Of a DNA stretch of 32,329 bases, positions 4,785 to 22,903 are shown in pieces. The DNA comes from Candidatus Altimarinota bacterium. GTDB lineage: Bacteria > Patescibacteriota > Gracilibacteria > BD1-5 > UBA2023. Positions within the stretch are counted from its first letter, which is position 1. Every line of letters begins with the position of its first letter. Made by a program: the position numbers and the translations under genes. The notes beneath the pieces were generated by a model, which saw only the letters and a list, made by a program, of their open reading frames with translations, did not search any database and was not told the origin of the DNA. Where the stretch lies: assembly GCA_024709505.1 (NCBI GenBank), contig JANJWP010000016.1:1-32329 (forward strand), read 5' to 3'.

Positions 4785-7700
4785 TTATTTCGAAAAAACT
4801 TTCATTCCGGAGGTCGCGAATGCCGGATTGTATTCCATGACGAACGAAGCCGTCTTGAGGGTCGGTCGAAGTTCTGGAACATCGTTGGCATCGGTTTGAT
4901 AGCAGGCCTTCTTTCCGGCGAACGCGTAGAGTTCGGCCGTCGTTCCGAGGGATTTCGGGGAAAGTTTCCCCGGAAGGGAACAAGCGGCGGGAGCGCTCGC
5001 TTCAATGAGGAGGAACCGCCTCATGAGGGCGAAGTCGTAGCGCGAAGCCTCGACCTGCGAACAGCTTTTGCTCTTTTTTGCTTCGTAGGTATCGCTTCCG
5101 TAAGGACATTCCCAAACGCTGGTCGAGGTCATGCTTCCGCCAATGGTGTTCGAGGAAAAGAGGCTTCCGTACCAAAGGAGTTGCCGGGTCAGATCGCCCT
5201 CCCTCGTATTGTCGATGTCGTACACCTTGTTCGAAGTTCCGTCGTAACTCATGAGGCTTCCTTCGGCATATCCGGCACCAACGATGTTGGTTACCTTCGG
5301 GGACACGTAGATGTTGCCTCATTTGGCCCGATTCGTGTCGTCACGGAGCACGACGAGCGCGAGCATGGAATTCGCATCGGCATAATGCAGATCGGTGTCG
5401 AGGTGTACGTTTCCTCATCGGACGATGACGGTCTTTTTTCCGGAGACGGACATTTTCCGGTATCCGGAAGTTCGCCCGGTGTCAACGCCGCGAAGCGTTA
5501 CGATACATCCGGGATTGCCGTTGATTTCGGTTCCCGAAAGCTTGGAGAAATCGTAGTAGGTTACGTCTTTCGTAAGATTGGTGACCGAAACGGAACAAAG
5601 ATTTCCGTTATCGGAAGAAAGTCCTCTGACGAGATCTTCGACGTTTTTCCTGACGTTGCTCCTAAACTGAGCCTTATCCATGGTCTGAGTATCGATGGAA
5701 ACCCCTGATTCCACGGTTTCCATGCGGTTTTTTCCCGTATCGGCGATTTGGCCGGTCGCGGCGAATTTTTGCCCGAACGATTCCGAATTTCCGAATTCGG
5801 AATCGGGCATGGCCCCCGACTGGTATTCGAAGCCTCGGACATCGGAATCGATTCCGAGATTCGCGGTGTTGTATCCGGTGGTCGAAAGGGGCGAGGAACA
5901 ATCCGTTCCATTGCAGATGGAATTCGTTTCCAAAAACCAAGGCAAATAGCCGGTGAATCCGATTTTTCCAAATCCGATGCCGTAGGAATTTGCGCGAATG
6001 GATATCGTTTTTTCCACTTTTCCAGGAACGAATCCTCCTCCGGAACCGGAACCTTTCGGGACGATGGGGAGTCATCCGGTGAAGACAAAGGAAACCTTTT
6101 TATCATTTCCTTCTCCGAGTCAGGAATGGGTTCAGAGGTCTCACCGAATCGCGACGTCGGCGAAGTTTCCGAGGTATTTTTCGTAACGGAAATCGAACGC
6201 GTACTTCGCGGCGGAGAAGGAATGTTGGGTGGAGTTGTTGATGAAAGAAAGCTTGATATCGTGCCAGGTTCCGTCCGAAAGCGTGTTCCAGGTTTTTGAA
6301 GGCACGATTTCAAGGGCCGGCTTGAAGGCGAGATATCCGTTAATGGAGGTATTGGTTGCCAGGTCGGTTCCAAGCGATCGTCCATACGTTCCGTTCGCAT
6401 TCGTTCCGGTGCAAACGTACCCGCTCGGGCATCCTTCGGCATTCGAAACTTCGAGGGCGTTAGAAAACGCGAGCGTCTTTATTTTGATATCATTGGTCGT
6501 AAGTCCCGGATATCCTTCCTTCGTCGGAACGGCGCTTCGGACCTGAATGACGTAATTGCCTTCGTCACGCGTTCCGATTCCCCGGTATATTTTGGAGATC
6601 GAGTTCCCCTCCGCGCTGCTTTTCCAATTCCCGTCGTCCCAATTGTACCATACCGATCCGTCCATCGAATTTCCGTTCGAAGGCATTATCTCGTTTCCAA
6701 GGAAGGAGGCGTTGTTTTCGAATGCCCAATCGGCCCGGATGTCGAGAATTCCCGGAATCGGACGGATGACGTTTCCATTTGCGTCTTCCAAATGGATGGA
6801 ATAGGTATATCGGTCGTAGAGATCGGCGACGGTGGCGGTTGCGAGTCCCCGCGAGGAGGTTAAGGTCACGTCTCCCGAAATGGAAGCGACGGGCCCTGCG
6901 ATCAATTCGATCCTTTGTTCCTTCGTCGTCGCGTTCCCGGCACGATCCTGAAGGGTTATTCTCAACGTCGCGACGCATTTTCCGTCGCCATTCGTATCGC
7001 AACTCTCATTAACGAATCTCGCTTCATTCGGAAACACGTTCGAGAAGGGTTCCGAATTTGCGGGGAGGTTGAAATAGTTCGTGACGTTTCCCGACTCCGA
7101 AATCCAACTGAAAGAATAATCTCGAAAACCGGAGGTCCCCACCGCGTCGGTGGGCGTTATGATCCGATATTCGTAATTGGCAGTTGCCTGAAGGAGTATG
7201 ACCGCCGGGGAGGTCGTGGAAAAATTCGGCGGAGTCTTGTCGTAAATGATCGACGCGGATACCGAAGGGCTCACGTTTCCGGCATTGTCTTTTGCCCAAA
7301 GGTAGAGCGTTTTCGTTCCTTCCGCGGAATTGCAGGAATATTGTGCGTCGGTAAGGTCAACGCTCTTGGTCGAAGCTCCGGCTAACCAATCTTCCCATCC
7401 GCTATCCTGAAAGGTGGAGTTACAGGATAGCCGAATGGACTTCAATCCGGATCATCCCGCATCCGAAGGATCGAGATGGGCGGTTACGGTCGGGGTGTAA
7501 GTATGGAGATTCGATGCGGTTTCAGTGAGTGAGAGCGTGTGGCCGTTCCAATTCTTCACCTTTCCGGTTAGCTTGAAATATCCGTTGCTTGACGCGAGCG
7601 GGGCCGTGGTTTCCATGAAAAAGTTGGCCGAACGGGTCGAAGAACAGTTTTTTGCCATGTCACAGGCTCGGACCTTTGCCGTTTGAACGCTCGACGAACT

Positions 7701-9215
7701 CGTTCCGCAATTGAAATTTGCCGTTATGGAAGTCGTTCCGGTTGACCATGTCGCGCCATTGTCGCAACTGTATTGAATTCCTCCATAAGGAGATCCGCCA
7801 AGCGTGAGATTGTCTGCCGTTCAGACAAAATTGACGGGAGCATTCGTCCAAGTTGAGGGGGAGACGGTAATGTCGGAAATCGTCGGGGGTTCGTCATCCC
7901 AACACCAACATCAGGCGCTTCATGCCGGCGAAAGGTTTCCCACGACCTTCGCGCGGCTTTTGGGTTCTCACCTTCACGTTCCGTCAGGAACGCACTTCTG
8001 TTGCGGGCTGAGCCAAACGTTTCCGTTTTCTCCGACCGGAGGTTCCCACCAAACGATTCTTCCGGTGGCCGGATCCTGACAATCGTACCATCCATCGCCG
8101 GCCGTTTCGGGGATTGGCGGGGGAGGGGGGAGTTTGTGGATTGAGAAAATATTTGAATCCGTACACCGCTGCCCTGATGTTCCGACAAACTCGCAAAGCC
8201 GTCCTTGAATCTTGGTGATCCGATCGTTTTTTGGAATGAACGCATAGTTCAAGGGCGCCGAAACGGCTTCGTATTCGCTTCCCGACCGTATGCGGACCCC
8301 ATCTATGATAATCGGGTCGAAGGATCCGTTCGAAAACCATCCGGTATCGCTTTCGACGGCTCCAATGGCTCCGCTTACCAGATTTGCGTGATGAACGATG
8401 ATTCGGTAGGAAGCGTAGATTTTCGAAGGTCCGGCAACATCCGCCAAGGCGCACTTCACTTCGCCGGCATAAGGATTTCCGAGCGGGCGCATGTCGTTGA
8501 TGAAATTGTCGCAGTTCAATGCCGGCATGTTCGGCTCGAATCCATCGACGCGTTTTCTCGGACCGACGCATTCGATGGAATTTCCCGCGTTATCGGAAAC
8601 CGTAATGCGGGCCAAATCACCCATGATGGCGCTCTGGTTTGCCGGAGCGTCCAGGGTATCCGAAGGCCAGACATACGATTCGCTTGATTTTGGAACGCCG
8701 CTTTGGGAGTCGCTGATGCTTACTAAATAAGATCGGTCCCAAGGAATCCAGTGCCAAGGAAGAAAGGTTACGTCCTGTCAGGGGCTCCAGTATCTCGTTG
8801 GACTTCCGGTAGTGGCAATCGTCCAGTTTCCGCATGTCGGCGGAGTGGTGTCGATTCGGAGCGTTGGAGATTCGCATTCCTTGGAATGTCCGCTCACGGA
8901 ATAAGCTACGGTACAGGTCCCCCCATCGTTACTGACCGTACAAGATCTGCTGGAGAGGGTGGAGGTACTGCCTCACGTTCCGGTGTAGGTGGTTCATTGG
9001 TTTCGGAATCGGACCGATTCTTTCCACCAAACGGTGTCTCCGCGGTCGTAGGTCCCGCTTTTCACGTCAACCGTCCAGGATCAGCAATCAATTCGGGAAG
9101 ACCCAGAATCTTCTTCGGGTGCGGCTAAAACTGAAAAGCCCGTGGAATGAAGGGCGATCAGCAGAATGGCTGACGATGCCAATCGTAATCCAAAGGAAGG
9201 GCGGCCTCTTTCCAT
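4785..9215 (-). CDS. Giant secreted multidomain surface protein with Ig-like domains
   Basis: A 1476-aa protein continuous only if UGA is Gly; it has 16 such codons (9081, 8994, 8973, 8778, 7974, 7968, 7920, 7911, 7821, 7452, 6141, 6132, 6120, 6072, 5415, 5319). It has an N-terminal signal peptide (MERGRPSFG, hydrophobic core SSAILLIALHSTGFSVLA, likely cleavage after AA near residue 32). Several Ig-like/cadherin-like beta modules are marked by TTPP or TPP linkers (DTTPPTCGNW, DEPPTISDITVSP, YDKTPPNFS) and motifs such as VSDNAGNS, AKDNAGNVS and QDRAGNATT. A Gly/Ser linker (GSGSGGG, ~residue 1055) precedes a C-terminal beta-rich region with repeats VIVRGGNVHL and KGGNIYVSPKVTNIVG, a style common in CPR surface proteins. 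Many Cys suggest extracytoplasmic disulfides. It begins the 9215-1815 operon and has a candidate promoter just upstream. A role in host attachment is inference only. Confidence 0.85.
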
Positions 9216-9242: not shown

Positions 9243-9270
9243 ATTCTAAACTAAGTTTTCGCCAAAACAA
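9243..9270 (-). promoter_or_regulatory. Candidate promoter for the giant surface-protein operon
   Basis: On the minus strand: TTGTTT (9270-9265), a 16-nt spacer, and TAGAAT (9248-9243, five of six bases matching TATAAT). It overlaps the end of the preceding gene and would give a leader of about 20 nt to the ATG at 9215. It suggests that the surface operon can be transcribed separately from the hxs operon. Confidence 0.45.
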
Positions 9271-10858
9271 GCAAGTCTTCCCATTTAGGGGGAATTTTGT
9301 AACAGTGGGCGCTTATGGACGTCAATTGTTTGAATTTTTCGTCAAAATCCGTAGTCGATGAATTTTCGGAATTCCCGTATCGAATTTCCTTCTTTTCCGG
9401 AGACGGCGCGGTCAATTGAACGTGAACCGCTCCATTTTTAAAGGGGACGTAGGCGGCATTTCCATTTTCGGAAATTTCGAATGGCCGGAAATAGGGATAA
9501 CCGGAACCGGAATGCGTTTTCCGAACCCATCCCGGAACGTCTTCGATCGGGACCGAATCGATGTCGTTCCGGGCAAGATCGATATGGAAAGCTTCCTGCA
9601 TGGTTCTCGCGTTGACGATATAGAACCGATTTGGTTGCCCGATGGTGGCGATAAATTCCCCCAATGCGTTTTGAAACACCCTATGGCTGGTAAAGCGGTA
9701 TCATCTCGGAGTGTCGAACGTCCCGGTTTTTCGCAATTCGCCTTGGAACAGCTCAAATCGATCTATCGACGCGGGTCAGAAATACCGTATCCCATCTAAG
9801 AAAATATCGAAATTGTGACTTGAGACGTAGACCGTATTCGAATTTTTCGAGAACTCAAAATGCGCCGGACTCCCGTTTGTCGTTTCCGCGAGTTGTAAAA
9901 AATCGGGATTGGATAGGGGAAAATAGCTGATTCGACCGGGAAGGAATTTTGAATTTGGAAAAAGTTTTTCGAATACGACGTCGTTCAGTTGGTCGCATCC
10001 AAGCCTGGTTTTGAGATTTTGCAGGAATTTTTCGAAGGAGGGGGAAAGTTTCTTAATAAGTCAGAAACGTAGCAGACAGGAGTCTTCGAATGTCTCAACT
10101 GCCACGCTTCCGCCATGAATTTTTTGATATGACTCAAAGAGTTTCCGCATTGAGATTTCGGCCAATTCTTCCCGATTGAGCTTTTGTTTGCCGTTTTGTG
10201 GGAGAAGGTAATTCCCCTCCTTGAAATACGAATCGTAAAAAATCCCCTCATGCACCCTTGCCATGTGCGGTGCGTTTGCGTCTCCTTGATAGGCTTCCTT
10301 TGAAATGCGTATCTTCTTCCAGCGCGAAAAGTCATAGGCGATTTCAACGTCGCAGATTTCCTTCGTTCCGTCGGGAAGTTCGCGAAGGCAGGAAGAATAA
10401 AAAAAGTCGGAATCCGGCTTTACGAAAGCGGTAGTGGCAAAAGCGATGACCTTTTCTTCGGGTCAGAAAATTTCCGCGGAATCAAAAATGAAGGCCCTTT
10501 TATTTTTCGGATCGAAACGAATGCCGATCGAAGAAAATTCGAAAAAAGACAGAAAGGTTCCATCCGGACAGGGAATGATGCAATGGGCGTCCTGCATTGC
10601 GTTTGACATGTGCCGGAAAAAAAAACCGGAACCATCGTTTCGGATTTCTTCGGCAATTTTGATGTTTTCCTCCGAAAGAAGCCACCAAATGGAAACCTTT
10701 CCGAGCCGGTGGTTCGTGATTATCCCGTTTGGGAGCATGTAGTATGGGTCCGACTTCGGATCCATTGCAAAATGGACGATGGGGTTTTCGAATTCCGGAA
10801 ATTCGCGAAGTTCCGGAATTTCTTTCTCGAACACGTCGAGCGAAAGTTGTTTAATCAT
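9251..10858 (-). CDS. Uncharacterised hxs-operon protein
   Basis: A 535-aa protein read through UGA=Gly at 10463, 10061, 9776 and 9701; stop TAG. The start ATG overlaps the end of the upstream radical SAM gene by 8 nt, so translation is coupled. No signal peptide or membrane segment is evident, so it is probably cytoplasmic. Composition is mixed alpha/beta with many aromatic residues and Phe/Tyr-Gly turns (for example NTVYVSSHNFDIF, IATIGQPNRFYIVNA), compatible with a beta-propeller-like fold in the C-terminal two-thirds, but no diagnostic motif is visible. I do not recognise the family. Its place at the end of the hxs operon suggests a role in the maturation, binding or processing of the modified product. 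Homology search and structure prediction would be needed to go further. Confidence 0.75.
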
Positions 10859-12899
10859 TGGAAGAAACGATCATGTGGTATTCTTCCATGGTCCGGATGA
10901 AAGCCTCTTCCGGCGGCGTTTGAAAGGCCTTTGCCATATTCTCTTCCAGCGTTGCGGAATCATTCCATTTTCAGATATCAAATCCCGTTCCGGCTTTGAA
11001 ACTGAGGGAATATCCGGTGGCTAGATTGATCAGGGAATCCACCCCTTTTACGTTCACGTATTTTCCCAGTCGGTAACGCCGTTTTAAGCTCTCCTTCCAT
11101 GGAGTCCGCAAAAGCGCTTCCCGATCGCGCACGGTTTTTCGAAACGCGCTTTCCCGAAAAAACGATTTCAAGTGGTAGAATATTCCAGTCCGGTCGATGA
11201 AATCCCAAAAATCCTTTGGAAAATTTTCCGGGATGGCATTCGGATTGACGAATTCCAAGAACTGCAGCCGGTGAATTTCGTTTGCGAATTTTTGTTGGGC
11301 CTGCGAAAAAACCTTGGAACGAATCATTTCCAATCGCAGCTTCAAAGAAGCGGCATCGGGTTTATCCCGTGAAATTTGAATTCCGAAGCGTTCGCCATGT
11401 TTTTCGTACACGCTGCCGCGATTCAGGCCGAAAACGTTCGGGGAACAGGTGTAATTGTCGCGCTCGCGAATGTTTTTCGAAAGGAAAAGGAACGTTTCGT
11501 ACATTTCGTCCTGACGTTCTCAGGGGAGTCAGAGAATCGCGTAATTATGAAAAGGAATGCCTGCCGATTCGAAATTCAAAATGATTTCCATTTTCTTTTT
11601 CAAGGGCATTTCGCTTCCCTTGTTGATCAGGTCGCTTACTCTGTCAGACGCGCATTCGAGTCCGATTCACACGTATCTCGCGCCGGATTCATGCAAAATT
11701 CGACACGCTGCCGCATCATACGCAGAATCGAATCTGGTTCGAAAACGGTACGTTAACGACAGGCCCCTTTCGAGTATTTTTCTCGCGAATTCGAGAATAT
11801 CCTCCGATTTTATCGCCTCGTCCGCAAGATAGAGGTACTCGATGCCGTATTTTTCGACGTAATCTAAGCAAGCATCAAGATATCTCGATCCCTCCTGTTT
11901 ATAGGGATAGAGATGCGTCGAATTGATGGTGCAGAAAAAGCAGCTGCTCCAGTAGCACTTGTAGGGAAAGAGCCTCAGCGTGGAAATTCTTTTTCCAAAA
12001 ATCTTCCGTTCCCGGGGTTTTTTATGGAAATATTGAACAAAGCGCTCAAAAAGCGTTTCTTCTGAAATTGCCTTCGGTTTCTGGAAAGAAGGGGTTCATT
12101 CGCGTAAACATACGACATTTTCCAAATCTTGGGGAATCTCTTTTCCATGGGAAAAGGCTTCCAAAATCATGCCCAAGGCATGTCCGTAATCTTCGTATAC
12201 GGTAATCGCGTCCACGAATTCGAAGATTTCCGGATTTTCTTCGAACGCGGTTATCCATTGGGTAAAATCAGCCTGTTCATTGCTTTTTGAAAAATCTAAA
12301 ACAACCCTTTTTCCCAGTTCCTTGAATCTTTTTGCCAGAGGGATGACCTGATAGAGCCCTGCGGGCCAAAAGAAATCTATGACGATTGAATGATATTCTT
12401 GGAGTTCGCAGGCGTTTTTGATTTCGGAGAAGACCAATCGGAACAAGGGGTCTTCAAAAAACCCCCGGTCTATTTCAAAAAGGTCCGGCAAATCTATGTC
12501 GTTGGCGTCAAAACGGTTGATTTGATGGAGGAGTCCCATCGAGGGGGAAATTTTCCAATTTGGAAAACCGGCCATGAATTCCTCGCATACCGCATTCAAT
12601 CAGACAAATGCCACGAAAAGGTCTTCGGCCGAAGGCAGTTCCTTGTCGGAGTCGGCAAAAGCCCGCGTGGATTTTTCGAATTCCCGAACGTAGGGATTTT
12701 CCGATCCGGGAGAAATCCGAATCCCGAATTCGTGGATTTTTTTCCAAATAAGCGACCCGATATCGAATTCGTCCGTTCACCTTCCGATTTTTAGGAATGT
12801 GGAATCGAACTGAAACTTCCGTTCGTCCAATTTTCAGAGCGGCGAGATTCTGAGGATTCGAGGTTTAGTTGGCAATCCAGGTGCGGAAGATTCTTTCAT
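10851..12899 (-). CDS. B12-type radical SAM enzyme with CX4CX2C cluster motif
   Basis: A 682-aa protein with eight UGA=Gly codons (12834, 12777, 12600, 12096, 11667, 11529, 11520, 10971). Residues ~1-270 resemble the cobalamin-binding-like Rossmann domain found before many radical SAM cores (VIDFFWPAGLYQVIPLAKRF; VDAITVYEDYG), but no DxHxxG corrinoid loop is evident. The radical SAM core starts at residue ~305, with the cluster motif CYWSSCFFC (Cys315, Cys320, Cys323). The spacing CX4CX2C is non-canonical. Later come YVGIGLE and AIGLPGE, typical core motifs whose glycines include UGA codons at 11667, 11529 and 11520. The C-terminal ~180 residues are accessory. Its start overlaps the end of hxsB by 35 nt, so it is probably co-translated with it. 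Likely it modifies the HxsA-derived peptide or a related substrate; the reaction is unknown. Confidence 0.85.
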
Positions 12900-14313
12900 T
12901 GTCTGCGTCTTGGAGTCGGATAAAGAGCGCGTCCAGAATCCCGGTTTCTATTCGGCGCTTAAAATCAGTGGGGTATTTGGGGTAAATGTCCCCCGTGGCC
13001 TTGAAATTATTTGCGGGACACGATCCGATGTACGGTTTGTACGGGTCGCTCTCGTATCCAGGAAGTCATTCGATGAGGGACGCCGAAAGAATGGCCTTGG
13101 TCGAAGGGGACGTGATCATCGAGACGTAGGTGTTTCGGGGATCTTCCGAGACTTCGCCGATCTGAAAAGCGTCGCTGCCCATTCTGGCCAGCATCCGCCC
13201 CTCGTCACAGGTATAGATTTTCCCATCGTAATTATAGGCCACCTGACCTATTCCGGCTCAACACGGCGAACGGGTGTCTACGTAATTGGGATCGTAGGGC
13301 GTGAGTATTTTTTTGAGAAATATGGTCGAATACGCCTCCTTCATGGTTGATTTCCCCGATTTGTTGAGTTCAAGCAGGTAGTCGAGAACCCTTTCGTAGG
13401 ATGCCACGAATTCCTCAGGGGAATATCAGAGGAACGAAAACGTCTTCGCGCCGTAACCCATGGCATTAAGGGGGCGCCAAAAAAGTTGGTCCATGCCGAA
13501 ACTGTCGTAGGTATCTACGCACTCCTTCCATTTTTTCAAGCTTTTGGAAGTAACGGTAAGAAGTGCTGATATGACATTTTTTCTCCAGTATTTTTCTTGG
13601 GAAAAGGCATCTATTCGACGGATCCAAAACTCAACGTTTTTATAGGAATTTCCTTTGAGAAAAGTTCGATTGAAATTATGGGTGGATTCGTCCCCGTCGA
13701 GCGAAGTGTTGAGTCCCACGTTATGGTGGAGGAGAAATGCCATTTTTTCCTCGTCCATGAGGGAGAGGTTTGTAACGAGCGAGAATTGCACGGGCTTTGC
13801 GAGCCTTTCGGATTTCTCCTTGGCATACTCGATCGAATATTTCACCACTTCCCAATTCACCAGGGGTTCTCATCCTTGAAACTCGAAAGAAATTTTCGGA
13901 GCGGTCGAGAAAAATGCCGTATCGATTATTTTTTTGGCGGTTTCCTGGCTCATGTCGAACCCTTCGGCGTCCATTGGAGCAACGGCCGCATGGCAATATT
14001 GGCAAGCGTGATTGCAACGCAGGGTGACCACTAAAATGTGCAAATTCGGTCCGCAGGCCATGAACGCGTGCTTTTTCGCGAATGCCAGAGCGGATTTTTC
14101 CAAGGCGAGCCCGATGATTCCGGCGTTTTCGAGTTTCGTTTTCACGGTTTCATCGTTTTCGGGCGGTTCCCCGGCGAGAAGCTTTTGAAACTGCGGTTCG
14201 GAAATGATGGCGTATCCGCCGTGCTCGGAAGTGAGGATGACATTTCCGTCCTTGAGTTTCTTAAAACGGAACGGATTGAAATTTTCGGGTTTGAGGGAAA
14301 TTTTCGGTATCAC
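12865..14313 (-). CDS. hxsB: His-Xaa-Ser system radical SAM maturase HxsB
   Basis: A 482-aa radical SAM peptide maturase (typical length for HxsB). The N-terminal domain (~1-85) has the HxsB-like start FRFKKLKDGNVILTSEHGGY. The 4Fe-4S motif is TLRCNHACQYC (CX3CX2C; Cys100, Cys104, Cys107). It is followed by EFQGGEPLVNWE, where the second Gly of GGEP (residue 148) is the UGA at 13870, and by TNLSLMDEEKM and STSLDGDE. The C-terminal SPASM-like region has SPCGAGIGQVAYNYDGKIY (Gly at 13258 is UGA) and further Cys residues (TCDEGRM, GSCP). Further UGA codons are at 13426 and 13066. Start is GTG at 14313, because an in-frame TAA lies just upstream at 14332. It follows hxsD by 18 nt. HxsB acts with HxsD on the HxsA precursor; the exact chemistry cannot be read from sequence. 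Confidence 0.92.
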
Positions 14314-14331
14314 GGAACGGATGGGGAGGTT

Positions 14332-14778
14332 TTAGAGATTTTCGATTCGATTCCGGCTTTCTTCCAAATCGAATTCGGTTGCAAGTTCTTTGAGAACGTC
14401 GTCAATGCTTTGGGATTTTCGCGAGGATTCTTGGTCCGGCTCCGTAACCATGGCGGCTTTGAGGGAGTTTGATATCGCGGAAACGATCATTTGCTCGCGG
14501 ACCTGGGAGAATTTTTCCGTAAAAGATTCTTTGAGTGAGGTGTTGAGCAATTCGTTCGCGTACTGCGATTCCAAATCCGTGATTTTTTCCGTCGGATTTT
14601 TCGGACTGATCCGCACGCTGTAGTGGCCAGGATGTTCGGCATCCCGAAAAATTTCGACTTTTGCCCGGTCGATGAAAAAATATGCCGCGACTTTGCCGAT
14701 CTCGAGCGGATATATCGATTCGTCAACCAGAATCTCGGCGTATTCGGCGGATTGCTCCAATGGTTCTTTTTGGGTCAT
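14332..14778 (-). CDS. hxsD: His-Xaa-Ser system protein HxsD
   Basis: A 148-aa protein with the HxsD pattern: EILVDESIYPLEIGKVAAYF near the N-terminus, FIDRAKVEIFRD, then YANELLNTSLKES, which matches the LLNDYxLRE-like signature of the family, then REQMIVSAISNSL. The C-terminal ~40 residues are an acidic, helical extension beyond the usual core. HxsD proteins are small partners of the HxsB/HxsC radical SAM enzymes and may act as peptide-binding or chaperone components (inference from conserved pairing). It lies between a B12-type radical SAM gene (11 nt before) and hxsB (18 nt after), as in known hxs loci. No in-frame UGA; TAA stop; no SD before the ATG. Confidence 0.88.
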   Translation of the reverse strand: MTQKEPLEQSAEYAEILVDESIYPLEIGKVAAYFFIDRAKVEIFRDAEHPGHYSVRISPKNPTEKITDLESQYANELLNTSLKESFTEKFSQVREQMIVSAISNSLKAAMVTEPDQESSRKSQSIDDVLKELATEFDLEESRNRIENL

Positions 14779-14789
14779 ATGGCGGATGG

Positions 14790-16223
14790 TTATCTGAGGG
14801 TAATGTTCGTATTCTTCAACAAATCCATTGATCTTTTTACGTATTCGCGCGCTTTTTGTATGTCCTCTTTCGGAAAGGTCGAACTTTCAATGATGGAAGG
14901 AACGTTGTACGGATCGCTTTCCTTCGTACGTATTCCGTATTTTTCGACTTCTTGCGAAAGTTTGGTTCAAGGATTGAGGAAGAGCGAATTGATGGTGACG
15001 TCGTTGGGTTCGAGGGAAAGGGCGGTGTTGTAGGTTTCGATGAAATCGGAAAGCGTTTCTCCGGGAAGTCAAAGTATGACGTCGAGGCTCACGTAGGCCC
15101 CGTTGTTTTTCAGGAAGGCCATCACTTTTTTCATTCTCTCCAAATGAAAATTTCTTCCTATTGCGGCGTTCGTGTGTCTCGAGGCTGATTGGAGGCCGAT
15201 CTGCACGAACGACAGTTTGAGATTTTTCAGTTGCTCAAGGTGTTCCGAGGTACACATTTCGTAGCGAATCGCGATCTGGTATTCGAATTCGTATTCCGAA
15301 AACAGTTGGACGATTTCCGACATTCGTCCGTGGTTGGTTGTTCCGAAGCAGTCGTCATAAACGTAGACGGTCTTGAAGCCGGCTGATTTTAGGACGTCAA
15401 GATCCCTCCGTATCGTTTCCGTTGGCAGCTGCCGCACGTGGGAATACTTTGCTCACCGGTAGCAGTAGGTGCATTTGTACTTGCATCACCTTCCGGTCGT
15501 GATCAGGGCCTTTTTTTTCGCAAAGGCGGAATCAAGTTGGCGAATGAAGGCCGAACGCGTCTTCCGGTAATAGTATTTGTTGTCCTCTTCGCCCGTGTCG
15601 TCGTCCAAGAACGCGACGATTTGATAATAATTGTCTTTTTCCCGCAAGATGACGCCGTCCTCATAGGCCGGGAATACGCATTCCGACAAATCGTAATCGA
15701 CTTCCGTCGATGGGGAATCGAGAATTTGGCCATCGTCCCGATACGTGACGTTGGCTATTTCGGAATCTTTTTTGTTCCGTCCGAACCGTTCGAGCAGATA
15801 ATATTCGATATCGGTACGGACGACCGTTTTTACGAAGGGAAACCTCTCCATGAATGAGCGGGCCGACGGGGCATCCATTTTGGAGCTGTGGACGATGACC
15901 TCCTTTTCTTTGAACGAGGCTTCTGCGGAGGTGAAAATCGAAGAAACGTACCGATCGCAAAAAATGCTCGAATGATAAAAATTCTCCAAAAAGAACAGGA
16001 AACAGCCTTCCGAAAAATTTGGAAGCCTTTCGAGGAGCGAGCGGTGGTATTTTTTGAAAGGATACATGCTTTCGACTCGAATCGATTCCGCATTCACTCC
16101 GAGGGCTTTCGTGAGAAAAGCACTCACGTATCCCGCCTGGGTTTCCGGCCAAAGAATCATCCCCGCATCTTTCGTTTGCGGGTAGAAAATTCTTATCGAT
16201 TCGTAAGGAAAAGCCCTATGCAT
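14790..16223 (-). CDS. B12-binding-type radical SAM enzyme
   Basis: A 477-aa protein, continuous through UGA=Gly at 15486, 15453, 15069 and 14967. The N-terminal ~235 residues correspond to the cobalamin-binding-type domain region (SIRIFYPQTKDAGMILWPE...). The core begins ALITTGRGCKYKCTYCYRGA: the canonical CX3CX2C (Cys247, Cys251, Cys254), with both flanking glycines encoded by UGA. Further radical SAM landmarks are VYVYDDCFG, VQIGLQSASRHTNAAIGR and VILGLPGETLSDF (UGA at the second Gly of LGLPGE) and LNPGTKLSQEVEKYGI (UGA at the Gly of PGT). The ATG at 16223 overlaps the preceding stop by 8 nt; longer upstream starts run into the neighbouring gene in another frame. Related enzymes methylate or rearrange unactivated carbons. 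The substrate here is probably the hxs peptide (inference from the operon). Confidence 0.88.
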
Positions 16224-17925
16224 TTCAAGTATCGCTTTGGATAAGTTTCTCAAGATTCGCTTCCCAAACCTTGTTGGCAAAGTCCGTGAAGTATGCGCGG
16301 TTTCCCGTAAACGATATTTCCGTGACGATCCGCTCGTGATGGGCGACGGCGAAAACGACCTTTTTTCTCGAGACGTCATAGAAGCGGATGAGTCCGTCAT
16401 TGCTTCAGAACGCGAGGATTCCGTTCCGGAATTTCGAAGGTTTCGAAAATATCCGTCCATCGGTCGGAGTCTTGGAAATGACGTTTCCGGACCAATCAAA
16501 ATGGTAAAATATTTTATCGAGACATCAAATGAAAATCCCCGATTCGCTTGCGCATGCCTGCGAATATACGTTGAAAGGAGTTTGGTATGTCCAAACATCT
16601 TCTCCGCTGTCGGCATCGAGGCATCGGAGACTCCCGTCAAAGCCACCAAAAAATACCATTTTTCCATCCGGAGAAACGGTCGGACGAATTTTAATGGGGA
16701 GGCTGAATCGGCGTTTCCAAATGGTTTTTCAGGAGTCGGCGTCAATTCTGACGAATTCGCCTCCGTTCGTTCCGCAATAGATCGAGCCGGTCATTGGATC
16801 GTATGCCGGAGAAGCGTGTACAAAATCGGAAAATGCCGTTTCCCAAAGAATTTCCCCGTTCGATATTTTCAGTGCGGCAACGCCTCAGGCGGTTTTTCCG
16901 AAATGTTCGAGTCACACGAACGCCCGATCATTGGACATGTCGCACTCCGGAGTGCTTCCTATCCATTCGCCGAGGGAAACCGCGATCCTTTTCGTTCCGT
17001 CGGCTTTCCGTACGAAATGAACGGCGCCGTCGTAAGCTCAAAAACAAACGTCTTCGCCGCAATTCACGACCGAAGAGAGGATGTTTTTCCCTTGCGGAGT
17101 TTTTTCCATTCGATATTCCCAAAGCGTTTCTCCGGTCACCGTATCGATTTTGACGAGTTTTCCGGCTTCTCAGGCGACATAGGCGGACGTGTTTTCCACG
17201 AATGGCGATGACTTCGGAACCACGAGTCAAAGGTGGGGGGATCATAAATCCCTTAGCAGTCGGGCATCTGGAAAAAAGATCGGCGTTTCGACGTTTTTCG
17301 ATTCCAATTCCAGGCCGAATTCGTCAAGGCGGAACATTGACCGCAAGGGAATGTTTGAAAGGGGGGAGTTTTCCGCTTCCTGAAGGGGAGAGGGATTTTG
17401 AAAGTGACAAACGCAAAAACATTCGACGACGGCAATGCCCCCATTTTTTGCCGTCATTATTGCCTTCGCAAGGGATTTTCCGGAATTCACGATATCGTCT
17501 ACGAGAATTGTGGGCAGATTTTCCGAAACTCCTTCGATCCAATTGCAAAGCCCGTCTTTTTTTCTGGTTTTCCGAATGACGAGTCCGTTCGCGCGCTTTC
17601 ATCTTTTGGCTCATTCGGCCAAAAGGAATCCCAACCATGGAACCGCTCCCATTTCCACGCAGGCAATCTGAAACGGAAATTTCCCCTCGTACGTATCCCA
17701 AAAAAGTTCCGCGGCCAATTCGGCGCTTCTTGGCGAAAGGAATGCCCTTCGAAAATCCAAAAGCCAGTTTTTCTTTCCGGTTTTTGGAGCGCTGGATCAT
17801 TTCGGAAAAATCGTTCTTTCGTCACCCCGTATCACGCAGAGGTTTCGAAGAATGCCTAAAAGTTCCTTTTTTTTCGATTCCCTGAGCACGTGTTCACGGT
17901 TATTGTTTTTCGAACGCCCCGTCAT
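16216..17925 (-). CDS. Phosphoribosyltransferase fused to PQQ-type beta-propeller
   Basis: A 569-aa protein with 13 UGA=Gly codons (17797, 17611, 17599, 17242, 17227, 17170, 17038, 16912, 16885, 16729, 16525, 16405, 16225). Residues ~55-170 form a type I phosphoribosyltransferase domain resembling orotate PRTase: WLLDFRRAFLSPR, GLVIRKTRKKDGL and the PRPP-binding signature ILVDDIVNSGKSL (~140-152). Residues ~215-569 form a repeat propeller with Trp-docking PQQ-like blades: KIDTVTGETLWEYR, KISNGEILWETAF, IDADSGKTIWKRRF and CLDADSGEDVWTYQ. UGA falls on the turn glycine of several blades. The gene overlaps the upstream gene by 26 nt and the downstream radical SAM gene by 8 nt. No signal peptide is visible, so it is probably cytoplasmic. 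The fusion might couple a PRPP-dependent reaction to peptide binding; this is speculative. Confidence 0.88.
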
Positions 17926-19261
17926 TTATGACGAAGGATTCGTCGCGATCTATTATGCGGTCTCATCCCTTGAACTGGAAGCGTATTCTTTTCGATCGGT
18001 CTTCGGGGGTTTTCGCATCGAGGAGATAAAATCCATCATTGCTGATTCATACGACCATTTCTTCGAGACCGTCTCCATCCAAATCCTTCCCGAAGACCGC
18101 TCGTACGGAGTACAGCTTGAAGGCGGTAAGATAGGAACGCTTTTTGAGATATTCCTCCGTAATGAGATCTTCCGAGAAACGCATCTCATCAATCTTCTCG
18201 ATTTCCAGGGAGTTTGGCTTTTCCCGAAAGAAATACAGCGTCGAATTATCGCATCCGATTTGGATGGTGGGATCTTTGTAAAAATTTACGGCTGAAATGG
18301 TTTTGCATTCGACGTGCCCTTCGAGTTCGGCGACTTGTGCCTTTTCGATGTCGCCTTCCGGTCAATGGAAATACCGGTATATCCGAACTGGTCGAATGGG
18401 GCTTCCGCTGCCGTCAATCATCCCGTCGTAAAGCACGAGAACGCTTTTTTGAAAAGGGGAATCCAATGCCATGAGCCTCCTGGGAAAGGCCGGAAGTTCG
18501 TCTTCCAAATCCTTTATGACGGGCTTGTCGTTTCCGGGGTTGAACGAAATGGAAGTCACGGTTCATTCCGAATACCACTCCCGAGCTCAAGAAACGCCCA
18601 TGTAGGGGGTTGTTCGGGTAAGATAGATTTCGTCATTGCCGTCATCGTCGAGATCCGTGGCATCCACGAAATGGAGGAGGGTGGCGTAAGAATCTCCCCA
18701 AACGTCGATTCGCGGACGGTAAGGGACATGAAGAATCCTTTCCTTTCAGGAATCCAAAGATCGAAGATGCACGTATCATTCGCCATGGCTGACGGCTACG
18801 AAATACCGTTCGCCATTTATTTTCGCCGTGGTAAAATTTCTGATTCGGTAATCGGGCGTGGACATGTACGTCTCCGTCCTTCCGTTTTTTGCCACGAAAA
18901 AAACCTTTCCCGATCCGGGATTCTTTCCGGGTTTTCCTCCGGTTACCAAGAATCCCCCGTTCCAAGCCGCCGTATTTTGCGCGAAGAAGTCTTCCGGAAT
19001 TTCCGAGAACCGGTATTGTTTCAGATCTTCGCTTCCAAGCACGAGTCCCTTCTGAAAATCTTCCACGGAAAATCGGAGGATGCCTCAGGAGAAGCTTCCA
19101 TAAAGGCTGTAAAATGTTCCAACCAAAAACCGCTCTTCTCCCGGCCAAAATCCTATTGACCTAAGCGACAGGATCGAAATCAGCATCAACAAACCGAGCG
19201 TCCATGGTAAAACCGCTCTTTCGGTTTTACCATGGACGGGAGGGGAAAATTTCCGAAACAT
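17900..19261 (-). CDS. Membrane-anchored FG-GAP/VCBS-repeat protein
   Basis: A 453-aa protein with eight UGA=Gly codons (19085, 18776, 18746, 18587, 18563, 18362, 18047, 17963). It has a short cytoplasmic N-terminus, then one membrane segment (AVLPWTLGLLMLISILSL). The outside portion resembles an integrin-alpha-like FG-GAP propeller: calcium-loop style motifs DATDLDDDGNDEIYLT and KDLDGDGLEEMVV, with blades such as GGFLVTGGKPG and GISNDGFYLLD. These repeats bind Ca2+ and ligands outside the cell. Start chosen at ATG 19261; a TTG at 19267 would add two residues. A 17-bp perfect hairpin sits in the coding sequence 23 nt after the ATG. It follows the TPR gene by 6 nt and overlaps the PRTase-propeller gene by 26 nt, so it belongs to the hxs operon. 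Confidence 0.83.
19199..19238 (-). repeat. 17-bp perfect inverted repeat inside the 5' coding region
   Basis: Arms 19199-19215 and 19222-19238 are exact reverse complements (core GTCCATGGTAAAACCG) with a 6-nt loop CTCTTT. In the mRNA this hairpin would lie about 23-62 nt after the ATG of the FG-GAP gene. It lacks a T-run, so it is not a typical terminator. It may act in translation control or RNA processing. Confidence 0.9.
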
Positions 19262-19267
19262 TTTCAA

Positions 19268-20518
19268 TTACGACGAAAGCGACGCGATCTTTTTCTTTAA
19301 ATCCAACCACACTACGAATACGTCCGGCGTGGTGAAGGGCATGACGAGGAGATCGTTTTTCATAAGCGCCTCGGCCTTTTTGTAGCTTTCGAGCGCCTCG
19401 GCCTTTTTGCCCTGGGATAAAAGAGCATCGGCCTTCTTGTGGTGGAGGAATCCCATTCGCGCGTCTATTACGTTAAATTCTTTTTGGAATACCAGGGCTT
19501 TTTCTTTTCTCGGGGTCAGTTGAATCGCGGCTATTTTCTTGTCGGCAATGGCTATTCCAGCATCGAAATCGCCCTTTATCGCATAAAGGTTGGCAAGCAT
19601 GTAGGGGAGGTAGAAGCTTGCGGGCCAAAAGGTATGGAGCTTCGCCGCTTCGTATTCCGTAAGGTAGGTTTCGAATTCCGAAATCTCCTTATCGATGTCT
19701 TTCTTAAAGTCCGACTCCCGAAGGGTGGCGTAGCGCTGGAATATTTGTTGTCCTTTGAAGAGGACCTTTCTTTCTTCGTCGGTCAAATCGTTCCAACCGT
19801 TCCATTTAAGAAAGAAGTGCACCTGATTGTTGAGCGCGTATGTCGGATCCATGAAATCGAATTTGCCGTCCGACTTTCCGTATTCAAGCATCTTCACGAT
19901 GAGGTTGTATCTTCGCGAAGATTCCGCAAGGTGCCGCTTTATCAAGGGGTCCGCGAATTTTTTGAAATCTTCCGGATGGTTCGAATAGATCTCTTTCAGT
20001 ATCAGTTGAAGATATCCCTCCGAACCTATGGGCATGGCCGCAAGCTTCTTCGGATCGTATTCCCCGCGGTTTTTGTACTGTTGGTAGATGTATCCCTCGA
20101 GCACGATTCGGGAATCCAGTCACAGTCCGCTTAAGTCATAGGATTTGGCGGTAAGAATTTTTTCGGGAATATCGGAACCGCTTTCCCGAAGCTCGAGAAG
20201 AATTGGCGACATGGCGCTCAATTGCACCTTGTTGGATATCGTCGGAGTTTCCAATTGGAAATCTTTCGAAGGAGTTTTTCCTGCGGCGATCTCCTCAATG
20301 AAATCGTTTAGGGCGTATTCGGTTTTCTTAGGAATTTCCGCCTCTTTTGGATCAATGCTTTCTATTTCGACGGTTTCCTTCGTTTGCGATGTTGGCGAAA
20401 ACCACGAAGACCCCGTATCGTTTTTTTGGTAGAAATAGAAGCCGCTCCCGAGAATCGCCAGGATTCCGAGCGCTAACGCCGCCGTCAATAACGCGCGTTG
20501 ATTTCCATTCTTGTTCAT
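19268..20518 (-). CDS. TPR-containing membrane-anchored protein of the hxs operon
   Basis: A 416-aa protein, one UGA=Gly at 20120 (residue 133). The N-terminal anchor (residues ~10-30, TAALALGILAILGSGFYFY) is followed by a Ser/Thr/Glu linker and a long helical domain. The C-terminal part has tetratricopeptide-like helices: LANLYAIKGDFDAGIAIADK and KKADALLSQGKKAEALESY. TPR arrays bind peptides or partner proteins. Its place immediately after hxsA suggests a role in presenting, exporting or receiving the mature product outside the membrane (inference). The gap of 88 nt to hxsA holds a strong hairpin. It ends with TAA 6 nt before the FG-GAP gene. No SD precedes the ATG. Confidence 0.82.
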
Positions 20519-20558
20519 GTTCGAGTTTTAAGTTTTTAAGGAGTTTATGGGAATAGCA

Positions 20559-20590
20559 CGAAAGACGGCGTATGAAACCGCCGTCTTTCG
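20559..20590 (-). terminator. Strong hairpin between hxsA and the maturation genes
   Basis: A perfect 12-bp stem, CGAAAGACGGCG (20559-20570) and CGCCGTCTTTCG (20579-20590), with an 8-nt loop, 16 nt after the hxsA stop codon. There is no clear U-tract on the minus strand, so it is better viewed as a partial terminator or 3'-end stabiliser that raises precursor mRNA over the enzyme genes. Confidence 0.65.
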
Positions 20591-20606
20591 GGCGACTGAC
20601 GGATTG

Positions 20607-20930
20607 TTATCCCCCGTCGCCACCATCGCCTCCCCCGTCGCCGCTACCGCTTCCGGAATCGCCGCTCGAGGAGTGGTTTCCGTGAGAGGAGTGGAGGCCT
20701 TGTCCCGAGGAATTAGAAATCGTGCTGGTGTGACCCTCGACGCTCGGGATGATTTGTTCGATGATATCGTTGCCGAGGCCATCGCGATCAGTGAAGGCAA
20801 GTGCCACTAACGAACCAACGATGCCCATTCCGAGAATGTTTTTCGTGCCGATGGAAGCATCGCGCGAAGTGAGAAATCTCGTAACGGAGCCCTTTTTCGG
20901 GGCAGAAATTTCGGTTTTTTCCTTTCTCAT
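20607..20930 (-). CDS. hxsA: His-Xaa-Ser repeat precursor peptide HxsA
   Basis: A 107-aa candidate precursor of a ribosomally made, radical-SAM-modified product. Residues 1-35 are charged (MRKEKTEISAPKKGSVTRF). A hydrophobic stretch follows (LGMGIVGSLVALAF, ~35-46), then DRDGLGNDIIEQIIPSVEG. The C-terminal ~38 residues are nearly all His, Ser, Gly, Asp and Asn, including GHTS, LHSSHGNHSSS and a Gly/Asp tail. There are three H-x-S triplets (HTS, HSS, HSS), as expected for HxsA but fewer than in long-repeat members. It is followed by a hairpin and the rest of the operon including hxsD and hxsB, which is the main support. No in-frame UGA despite ~25 glycines; TAA stop. A large palindrome lies upstream. 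Confidence 0.85.
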   Translation of the reverse strand: MRKEKTEISAPKKGSVTRFLTSRDASIGTKNILGMGIVGSLVALAFTDRDGLGNDIIEQIIPSVEGHTSTISNSSGQGLHSSHGNHSSSGDSGSGSGDGGGDGGDGG

Positions 20931-21008: not shown

Positions 21009-22127
21009 TTATCTTGGGGCTGTCAAGACGAATGTCCCAACGTGCCCGAACTCCGCTACGGAAACTCCGATCGCGGCCAGGAAAACATAAGGACCGAGTG
21101 GCAGGTGCTTCACGATTCGTATCTCATTGGGAATGGCGGGGTTTTCCCGAATGGATTCTGCCACGGTTTCCCGAATCTTTTTTAAGGTTTCGCCATCGAT
21201 TCTGCCGACGTTCGCCCATTCGTTCGCATCCGTCTTTCCGGAGAGGAACCTTGCGGTGAAAAATGCCGAATCCAGAACCATGCCTTCCGAGAGCGCTCCC
21301 GAATCTATGATTTTCGACCTTGAAGCCTCGAGGTACAGGTTCAGTCCTCGGACGAGGAACATGAATACGAAAGACAACGAGAGTCCGACCGGAACGGCGA
21401 CCGCGAGGGAGCGCATGCCATTTGCGAATCACGATGCCCAAACGTCTATCGATACGGCAAGGACGGCGGGAACGACAACCGCCAAATACGCTCCTCCCTT
21501 GCGCCGTCCGAATGCGCCCGCGATGCTTTTTACGACGAGCGGGAAAACGAGCATGAATGCCACGAGCAATAGGAGGAAACCTTTCTCGATGCGGATTGCT
21601 TGTCCCGTTGCGGCGAACGTCGCCTTCGCCGCAACGACGTAACAAACGACCGAAACGACCGAAACGAGAACCTCCGACCGACCGCGTTTTTTTTGAAATC
21701 CTTCGGAAAAATGCCGTTTCATAGCCCTTCTTGACTCTGGATTCCGAAGGGATCGAAAGAAAAATGCCATTGCGGCGAAGGAAATGGAAGCGACGAACGA
21801 TCCGAGGAAAACGAAAAGGAAATTCGTTCCCGCACCCAAGGCCGAAAAGAAGGCTGAAAAAGCAAAAAGAAGCTTCGCATATGCGGCATTGAGGGATTGT
21901 TGAACGGCGAGGAAAATGAGAATTCCGAATGTGACCAAAAGTTCGAAAAGGCGGTTTCGCGCTTCGGAAAAGGATGCGGAAAGTTCCACGTTCCACGCGA
22001 CGAACGCCAGTCCCAAAACGAAAAAGGCGATCCACGGCGGAAGGTCGCCGCGCCGCTTGTCGGCGATTGCCGCGTATAAACCGAGTACGCACGCAAGCGT
22101 TGCCAGTGCGGGGAGAACGAATTCCAT
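21009..22127 (-). CDS. Polytopic membrane protein, possibly prepilin-peptidase-like
   Basis: A 372-aa protein with one UGA=Gly at 21429. It has about eight hydrophobic segments, starting MEFVLPALATLACVLGLYAA. Two features recall A24/archaeal preflagellin peptidases: an early Asp loop ADKRRGDLPPW (compare DxxxxxIPN), and a C-terminal soluble stretch GRIDGETLKKIRETVAESI followed by VKHLPLGPYVFLAAIG. However, the GxGD motif carrying the second catalytic Asp is not visible; the nearest candidate reads LGAGTNF. An active peptidase is therefore doubtful and the assignment is weak. It starts 11 nt after the His-tailed membrane protein gene and is last in the pepF operon; TAA stop. Confidence 0.7.
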
Positions 22128-22138
22128 GTACGGTCGTT

Positions 22139-22903
22139 TTAATGGTGCGCGTGCCCGTGTCCTCCGTGGCCATGGGGGTCTTCGTGTTCGTCTTCGAAAT
22201 CCTCGTGCCCGTGCCCGTCATCGTGATTAGCGTGCCCGCTTTCTGGATGTCCGCCGTTTCAGCCTCCCTTCATTCGCTTGAGAAGGGTGGAGAAGACCGC
22301 GGCGACCGTCGCGCCGACGATTTCGGCGAAGAACGCCTTATAAATGCCGAAAAGCACGGCCGAAACGACAACGCTCTGCATGTGCGAAGCGAGAAACGTC
22401 AGCGCCTTCGAACCGGCGACGAACGCCGTGAATCCGGGGGAATCTCTCAAGAGGGTGAAGGCCGTATCAGCGGTGAAGACGTAGGACTGCGCCATGAACC
22501 CGAATCCCGAAGTGATGATCACCGCCATCGCGAAAACGGCCACGAAACCTGATTCGAGGGCTCGAATGAGGGGATTTTCCGCTCCTTTGACGTTCAATCC
22601 ACCGTTTATGGGACCTAAGAAAAAAAGAATGGGAATGAGGTATGCCGACGATCCGATAAGGAACGTCGAAACCGAAGGACTGAGCACTTTGGCCGTTTCG
22701 GGGGAAATGTAGGCCGGTCCGAGAAGGGTTTGGAGTACGACGTAAATGCCGATCCCGACGACCGCTCCGAAAAATGCGGAGTACGCTTTGGAACTTCAAA
22801 GGAACGCAAAAATCGCGAATGCCAAAACCCCCGCCGCGGCGACGACGAAATCGGGATTCGATATCCCGATGGACGCGGTGATGGGGGTAAGGAACGCGAG
22901 CAT
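22139..22903 (-). CDS. Membrane protein with His-rich cytosolic or periplasmic tail
   Basis: A 254-aa protein with UGA=Gly at 22796 and 22259. It has about six hydrophobic segments (for example DFVVAAAGVLAFAIFAFLG, AYLIPILFFLGPING, AVFAMAVIITSGFGFMAQ). After the last segment (LLKRMKGG) the UGA-encoded Gly leads into a tail of about 36 residues with 12 His plus many Asp/Glu (GHANHDDGHGHEDF, DPHGHGGHGHAHH). Such tails bind divalent metals such as Ni, Zn or Co in transporters and chaperones; no transporter family is recognised. Under the standard code the tail would be lost. It starts 3 nt after the pepF stop and precedes another membrane protein by 11 nt. Metal delivery to the nearby cobalamin-type enzymes is only a guess. 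Confidence 0.8.

Follow-up and report, generated by a model that had tools for sequence, protein, structure and literature searches.

Organization of the hxs locus

The window analysed here is the entire 32,329-base contig (JANJWP010000016.1) from a 1.17-Mb, 98% complete genome of a Candidatus Altimarinota bacterium of the Gracilibacteria. On its minus strand lie nine genes, from position 20930 down to 9251, that include relatives of the His-Xaa-Ser (Hxs) peptide genes hxsA, hxsD and hxsB alongside two further radical S-adenosylmethionine (rSAM) enzymes, here named rSAM1 and rSAM2. The window locus is almost certainly an Hxs-type system resembling those for ribosomally synthesized and post-translationally modified peptides (RiPPs); beyond that, it is probably a lineage-expanded variant, i.e., one instance of an order-wide system in which the repeats of the precursor tail match the set of rSAM enzymes. 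An earlier note, made from the sequence alone, had proposed an hxs operon at 9251–20930, and nine genes do occupy that interval, with the following corrected assignments (lengths in amino acids, aa):

20607..20930, minus strand: hxsA-like precursor, 107 aa, with a leader (~1-60) and a GHTSTIS...HSSHGNHSSSGDSGSGSGDGGGDGGDGG tail; assigned by leader homology and a same-genus homologue
19268..20518, minus strand: membrane/tetratricopeptide-repeat (TPR)-like protein, 416 aa; TPR_2, 23 bits, under cut-off; 41% identical homologue in G001:C149 (genome G001, contig C149)
17900..19261, minus strand: membrane protein, 453 aa, possible FG-GAP/propeller; FG-GAP, E 0.14; 38% identical homologue in G001:C149
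16216..17925, minus strand: phosphoribosyltransferase (PRTase) domain fused to a PQQ/BamB-like beta-propeller; PF00156, 27.6 bits; PF13570, 149.7 bits
14790..16223, minus strand: rSAM1, CX3CX2C rSAM enzyme; PF04055, 76.6 bits; AlphaFold confidence (pLDDT) 90.7
14332..14778, minus strand: HxsD; TIGR03976, ~37 bits (37.2-37.3), cut-off 50
12865..14313, minus strand: HxsB, SPASM-type rSAM maturase; TIGR03978, 450.8 bits, cut-off 370
10851..12899, minus strand: rSAM2, CX4CX2C rSAM enzyme; PF04055, 35.5 bits; AlphaFold pLDDT 83.3; invariant residues
9251..10858, minus strand: P1, 535 aa, probable cluster member; single homologue, in G049 (514 aa, 74 bits)

These frames are open only with TGA read as a sense codon. 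The two in-frame TGA codons of hxsB (codons 148 and 352) stand opposite glycine in 49/49 and 47/47 of the relatives with a residue at those positions, two standard-code relatives included; genetic code 25 is thus the right one, as the note's reading of a UGA-recoded genome had it. The intergenic spacings from hxsA to P1 are 88, 6, -26, ~-8, ~11, 18, -35 and ~-8 bases, such that the majority of the genes abut or overlap, again as had been claimed. Start positions were revised for rSAM1 (near 16223, not 16931), HxsD (near 14778) and P1 (10858). Gene families (F0-F449) derive from homology-weighted gene calling, which is imperfect in this GC-rich window.

The precursor and its leader

Judged by homology, the window hxsA, which lies on the same strand as hxsD and ~5.8 kb upstream of it, is a real precursor gene, since (i) a 62% identical homologue is found in the same genus at a locus that keeps the gene order HxsA-TPR-FG-GAP-PRTase (G001:C149) and (ii) its leader is homologous to that of precursors across the order. 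The order precursors have in common a leader resembling KKKIFPKIKKKLKGFLTDESGKISKKDALGL, often with the motif HASGIVNGHYS, and usually end in an (HGS)n tail; this leader occurs at >40 loci, mostly adjoining HxsB. In a full search with a hidden Markov model (HMM) of the order-wide leader, the window HxsA stays under threshold, and 2/5000 shuffles of the window leader score equally high. Profile-to-profile comparison of the genus leader with the order leader returns an hhalign E of 2.4e-7 and a score of 35.6, the best of 200 column shuffles reaching 18.6. Two observations count against the assignment. None of the NCBIfam HxsA, HxsA2, HxsA3 and HxsA4 models matches the window protein even at E=10, and it contains just three His-Xaa-Ser motifs, a number attained by 276/20000 shuffles. 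The precursors of relatives, with which the charged leader is shared, do match HxsA3 and HxsA4 (NF038309, NF038313), all but one of those tested below cut-off, whereas the window precursor is recognised by neither model.

Behind the charged leader, the precursors carry a hydrophobic segment. This fits the alternative that survives best, in which the precursor would be a surface or metal-binding protein rich in His, Ser and Gly, i.e., a structural part (pilin- or adhesin-like) matured by rSAM enzymes, as opposed to a diffusible peptide. Genes resembling A24 prepilin peptidases (family F7) at or beside ~16 loci, as well as giant secreted proteins of family F4 at the locus end, would suit such a role. 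Nonetheless, a pilin-like leader was considered and set aside, six leaders having given no match to Flp or any other pilin family, and the A24-like candidate of the window is very weak, with no visible second catalytic aspartate. We hold a structural protein to be a serious possibility, yet on the unlikely side.

Further precursor-like genes were encountered among the relatives. A second HxsA-like gene in G001 (L126, contig C10) has a HSSHSSHASHSSHASHSSSGNSSGGG tail and adjoins both an open reading frame (ORF) resembling the N-terminus of rSAM2 by eye and a long ORF resembling F4. In the standard-code candidate phyla radiation (CPR) genome G366, which has HxsB, HxsD and a SPASM rSAM, a 521-aa protein (L112:1506-3068) has an HxsA3-like leader, contains 22 His-Xaa-Ser motifs and is extended by a large additional C-terminal region. 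Two HxsA-like precursors are present in G029 (98% complete; contigs C1 and C6, loci L049 and L050), a genome without HxsB over cut-off.

HxsB, HxsD and HxsC

Profile searches on UGA=Gly translations, proposed in the earlier note as a check, place the window HxsB over its curated cut-off and match HxsD below cut-off. The HxsD shortfall (~37 vs 50 bits) counts against the Hxs reading; the protein is homologous to HxsD at ~45 relative loci, where it adjoins HxsB, and appears genuine but divergent. A classical HxsC was said to be missing, and TIGR03977 indeed has no match in the window. Across the 99 genomes compared (all 77 genomes of the Gracilibacteria order and 22 other members of the class), HxsC over cut-off occurs in 0/99; copies under cut-off are common in relatives, with up to 21 matches to the model in one genome, all sub-cut-off and not all necessarily HxsC relatives.

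The further suggestion that two B12-type enzymes take the place of HxsC did not hold. As a fixed substitute, rSAM1/rSAM2 were rejected: rSAM2 and rSAM1 (with the PRTase protein) form distinct modules, each gained or lost among the genomes, and in G041 both are present together with another SPASM-type rSAM near HxsA. In G001, a contig other than that of hxsA carries rSAM1 and HxsD in opposite orientations, with HxsD followed by HxsB and rSAM2 as in the window.

Distribution and variable gene content across the order

HxsB over cut-off was found in 45/77 order genomes, in 0/22 other class members, and in 2/379 other genomes of an even phylum sample. Biosynthetic pathways are usually said to be few in CPR bacteria, and the note had accordingly called the ~11.7-kb system striking; it is nevertheless no isolated oddity of a gene-poor genome, as HxsB loci recur across the order and many of them are far larger. 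Despite CPR gene poverty, an HxsB locus is thus present in over half of the order genomes, some with >10 rSAM genes. The loci read bring together HxsD, HxsB and a precursor, often with a small ~65-aa protein, and the count of rSAM genes recognised up to 45 kb from HxsB runs from 1 to 16, which is a minimum wherever a contig or fetched region stops. The arrays variably contain, in addition, an HExxH peptide beta-hydroxylase (TIGR04267, 54 bits, cut-off 40), a peptidase of A24-like type, a NodU-like carbamoyltransferase, an AsnB-like protein, a Trp-halogenase family protein, and a NifH-like protein accompanied by one resembling a nitrogenase component. Order-wide variable tailoring is very likely. 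A neighbourhood survey of Gracilibacteria had been recommended, and it shows the neighbouring genes to be conserved in relatives; neither of the outcomes named in the note as refuting, i.e., failure of the HxsB/HxsD profiles or a lack of neighbour conservation, occurred.

Several array genes merit mention in their own right. NifH-like and nitrogenase-component-1-like proteins lie inside Hxs rSAM arrays in G066 and G032 (L066:4576-5403 and L041:445-2337), and also in G038 and G039; the NifH-like protein scores 302 bits to Fer4_NifH and is under the NifH equivalog cut-off. A Trp-halogenase family gene (L051:19399-20000, G049; 114 bits to PF04820) sits near an Hxs/rSAM2 locus. At L068:7142-8260 (G062), and likewise at 10 further loci, the aKG-HExxH-type peptide beta-hydroxylase (TIGR04267, over cut-off) is encoded next to an A24-like gene and F4, in an order that recurs at the ends of arrays.

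Predicted fold of rSAM1 and rSAM2

The structural models of both enzymes resemble the overall fold of cobalamin-type rSAM proteins. Foldseek best matches were CysS/TokK/TsrM/OxsB/AprD4 for rSAM1 (best E 2e-22) and OxsB/AprD4/TsrM for rSAM2 (E 7e-12). As far as models can tell, rSAM1 and rSAM2 have a predicted cobalamin-type rSAM fold, and the earlier description of two B12-type enzymes stands in this respect. It does not extend to the B12-binding domain, for which no Pfam model matches either protein; moreover, AprD4, a close fold match of both, is a diol dehydratase in the PDB and no methyltransferase. With these two points on the other side of the scale, rSAM1 and rSAM2 are putative cobalamin enzymes. 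rSAM2 further differs from cobalamin-type rSAMs in having CX4CX2C in place of CX3CX2C. A PDB sequence search with the rSAM2 alignment gave no match, and profile matches to KedN5 and to the RiPP C-methyltransferases of TIGR03975 are weak and far under every curated cut-off (for rSAM2 with TIGR03975, 29.9 bits against 281.85).

Pairing of rSAM2 with a Ser-Gly tail

rSAM2 is present in 8/77 order genomes, and scanning 84,980 species for its sequence pattern recovered it only in metagenome-assembled genomes of Gracilibacteria/Patescibacteria. Among the 43 genomes with a readable precursor, an alternating Ser-Gly run of >=4 occurs in 7/7 with rSAM2 and in 0/36 others. The precursor of the eighth rSAM2 genome (G001), read afterwards, likewise has a SGDSGSGSGDGG tail, so that all eight possess a precursor with a (Ser-Gly)n tail. 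The 7/7 vs 0/36 table has a probability of 1/C(43,7), ~3e-8, if genomes are independent, which they are not; an alternative measure (any Ser/Gly/Asp/Cys/Thr run, thresholds 6-9) gives p 4e-6 to 5e-5. On the HxsB tree, rSAM2 is scattered, requiring six changes, and six independent pairs can be drawn on the best tree, four of them on well-supported branches. The four scored contrasts all fall in the predicted direction, and the remaining two agree as well, the two traits having identical states in every tested row. In G074, an SGSG tail is seen on the precursor that immediately follows rSAM2 and on neither of two other precursors. In G029, rSAM2 and a Ser-Gly precursor are present with the best HxsB match far under cut-off.

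Three considerations temper this association: the run cut-off of 4 was picked after the values were seen; G001, the sole genome read after that choice, belongs to the same genus as the window; and a sign test on the four well-supported contrasts alone yields p 0.125. On balance, the co-distribution argues that rSAM2 acts on the Ser-Gly tail, which we favour without regarding it as settled. That the reaction is methylation specifically, a guess prompted by the fold together with a weak resemblance to TIGR03975 and families akin to it, appears doubtful. The pairing nonetheless offers a testable enzyme-substrate prediction for a previously uncharacterised enzyme.

The Ser-Gly tail could instead be a by-product, in which loss of an HxsC-like enzyme lets (HGS)n decay to a Ser/Gly linker while rSAM2 has its target elsewhere. 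The low complexity of such tails agrees with this, as do the window locus, with no HxsC-like enzyme and just three His-Xaa-Ser motifs, and G014, which has rSAM2 but zero such motifs. Decay sits poorly with G013 and G074, in which long HGS runs are kept and a Ser-Gly run is added, with the retention of HGS tails at loci with few rSAM genes (e.g., G005), and with the repeated joint gain or loss of rSAM2 and tail. We thus view a mere by-product as unlikely.

Pairing of rSAM1 with the PRTase-propeller protein

The PRTase domain retains an invariant VDD..N in its phosphoribosyl pyrophosphate loop, aspartates included, and is found in 7/7 rSAM1 genomes vs 2/92 others. Two of the former, G087 and G095, are standard-code genomes that do not belong to the order and have no HxsB over cut-off; the rSAM1-PRTase module is therefore able to exist apart from HxsB. 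This same observation would suit a separate small-molecule or nucleotide pathway that happens to share the operon. In the order, by contrast, 5/5 genomes with rSAM1 also possess either an HxsB that passes its cut-off or an HxsB locus, rSAM1 and HxsB are adjacent (G000, G001, G063) or in one gene run (G041) where contigs permit, and in G095 rSAMs of the peptide-maturase kind lie next to the rSAM1/PRTase genes. An independent pathway seems unlikely.

Proposed maturation and its significance

Leader homology, the presence of HxsB and HxsD, and a repeat-bearing tail together make leader-guided maturation the most likely scheme. Here, the leader would recruit the maturases with HxsD as helper, HxsB would modify the His-Xaa-Ser part, and rSAM2 would modify the Ser-Gly tail, with radical C-methylation or another carbon-centred change the likeliest outcome. 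rSAM1 and the PRTase-propeller protein may add a third change, following which the finished peptide would exit the cytoplasm and, together with the TPR, FG-GAP and 1476-aa secreted proteins, act on the cell surface or beyond it. A surface location of the product, for display or sensing as the note had it, is plausible; the idea draws on the predicted secreted neighbours, and we consider the chances of a surface role evenly balanced. Were the product at the surface, it could bear on the interaction of cells with hosts or neighbours.

A broader, tentative reading is that of combinatorial tailoring: one leader family would feed a changing set of enzymes, rSAMs and others, each tail repeat block having its own enzyme. 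rSAM2 would then found a new family of cobalamin-type peptide enzymes that target (Ser-Gly)n, while rSAM1 and the PRTase-propeller protein would form a tailoring pair that is likewise new, yielding surface peptides that differ between species. If so, species-specific surface peptides would exist in an otherwise gene-poor, probably host-dependent lineage. The remaining alternative, that translating TGA as glycine produced spurious open frames or a spurious hxsA call, has many long shadow ORFs in GC-rich DNA to recommend it, but can be dismissed, having already been refuted for HxsB by the glycine alignments and being at odds with the zero TGA codons of hxsA and the existence of its 62% identical homologue.

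Relation to known systems

Compared with HxsABCD (TIGR03976-TIGR03979), the window has in common an HxsB over cut-off, an HxsD-like partner, a His-Xaa-Ser precursor and an operon; it differs in lacking HxsC and in having two B12-fold rSAMs, a PRTase-propeller protein, secreted partners and a Ser-Gly precursor tail. The suggestion that it may define a new subtype is borne out insofar as it is a dedicated Hxs-type system with two B12-fold rSAMs, and needs qualifying in that it is one member of an order-wide variant. The TvgA/TvgB poly-cyclopropylglycine system (PMC9062424) provides a parallel for an rSAM enzyme acting along a simple precursor repeat, although the enzyme family is another and the repeat is TVGG. 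In the same paper, HxsB and HxsC figure solely as cluster annotations, with putative maturation of a His-Xaa-Ser peptide. In a full-text search of open-access papers, Hxs appears only in passing mentions, with no characterised product and the modified atoms not stated, and none of these papers joins Gracilibacteria with rSAM peptide maturation; an earlier description elsewhere is possible.

Membrane, secreted and other neighbouring genes

The TPR and FG-GAP membrane proteins named in the note are present and have same-genus homologues, but both labels derive from sub-threshold Pfam matches. Neither protein, nor that encoded at 21009-22127, has phmmer relatives in the other loci, and conservation of the TPR and FG-GAP proteins within the genus only counts against the favoured reading. 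P1 has no Pfam match, and its sole relative among the loci read adjoins the rSAM2 genes of G049.

Two flanking genes may extend the cluster:

4785..9215, minus strand: predicted secreted protein, 1476 aa, family F4, probable last gene; 257 bits to the F4 HMM
21009..22127, minus strand: membrane protein, 372 aa, possible divergent A24-like (F7) relative; F7 HMM E 0.006, C-terminal GPY(I/V)F region

Extension to the first is probable. It lies 35 bases downstream of P1, and its family, the HMM of which was built from other loci, often adjoins or closes Hxs loci, with 1-4 copies per genome and further members in genomes without HxsB. Extension to the second is possible: it has no Pfam match, and the F7 value, from a search over the ORFs of all loci read, is weak. 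Farther along, window positions 22139-22903 encode a 254-aa membrane protein with a His-rich C-terminus that is 65% conserved in G001.

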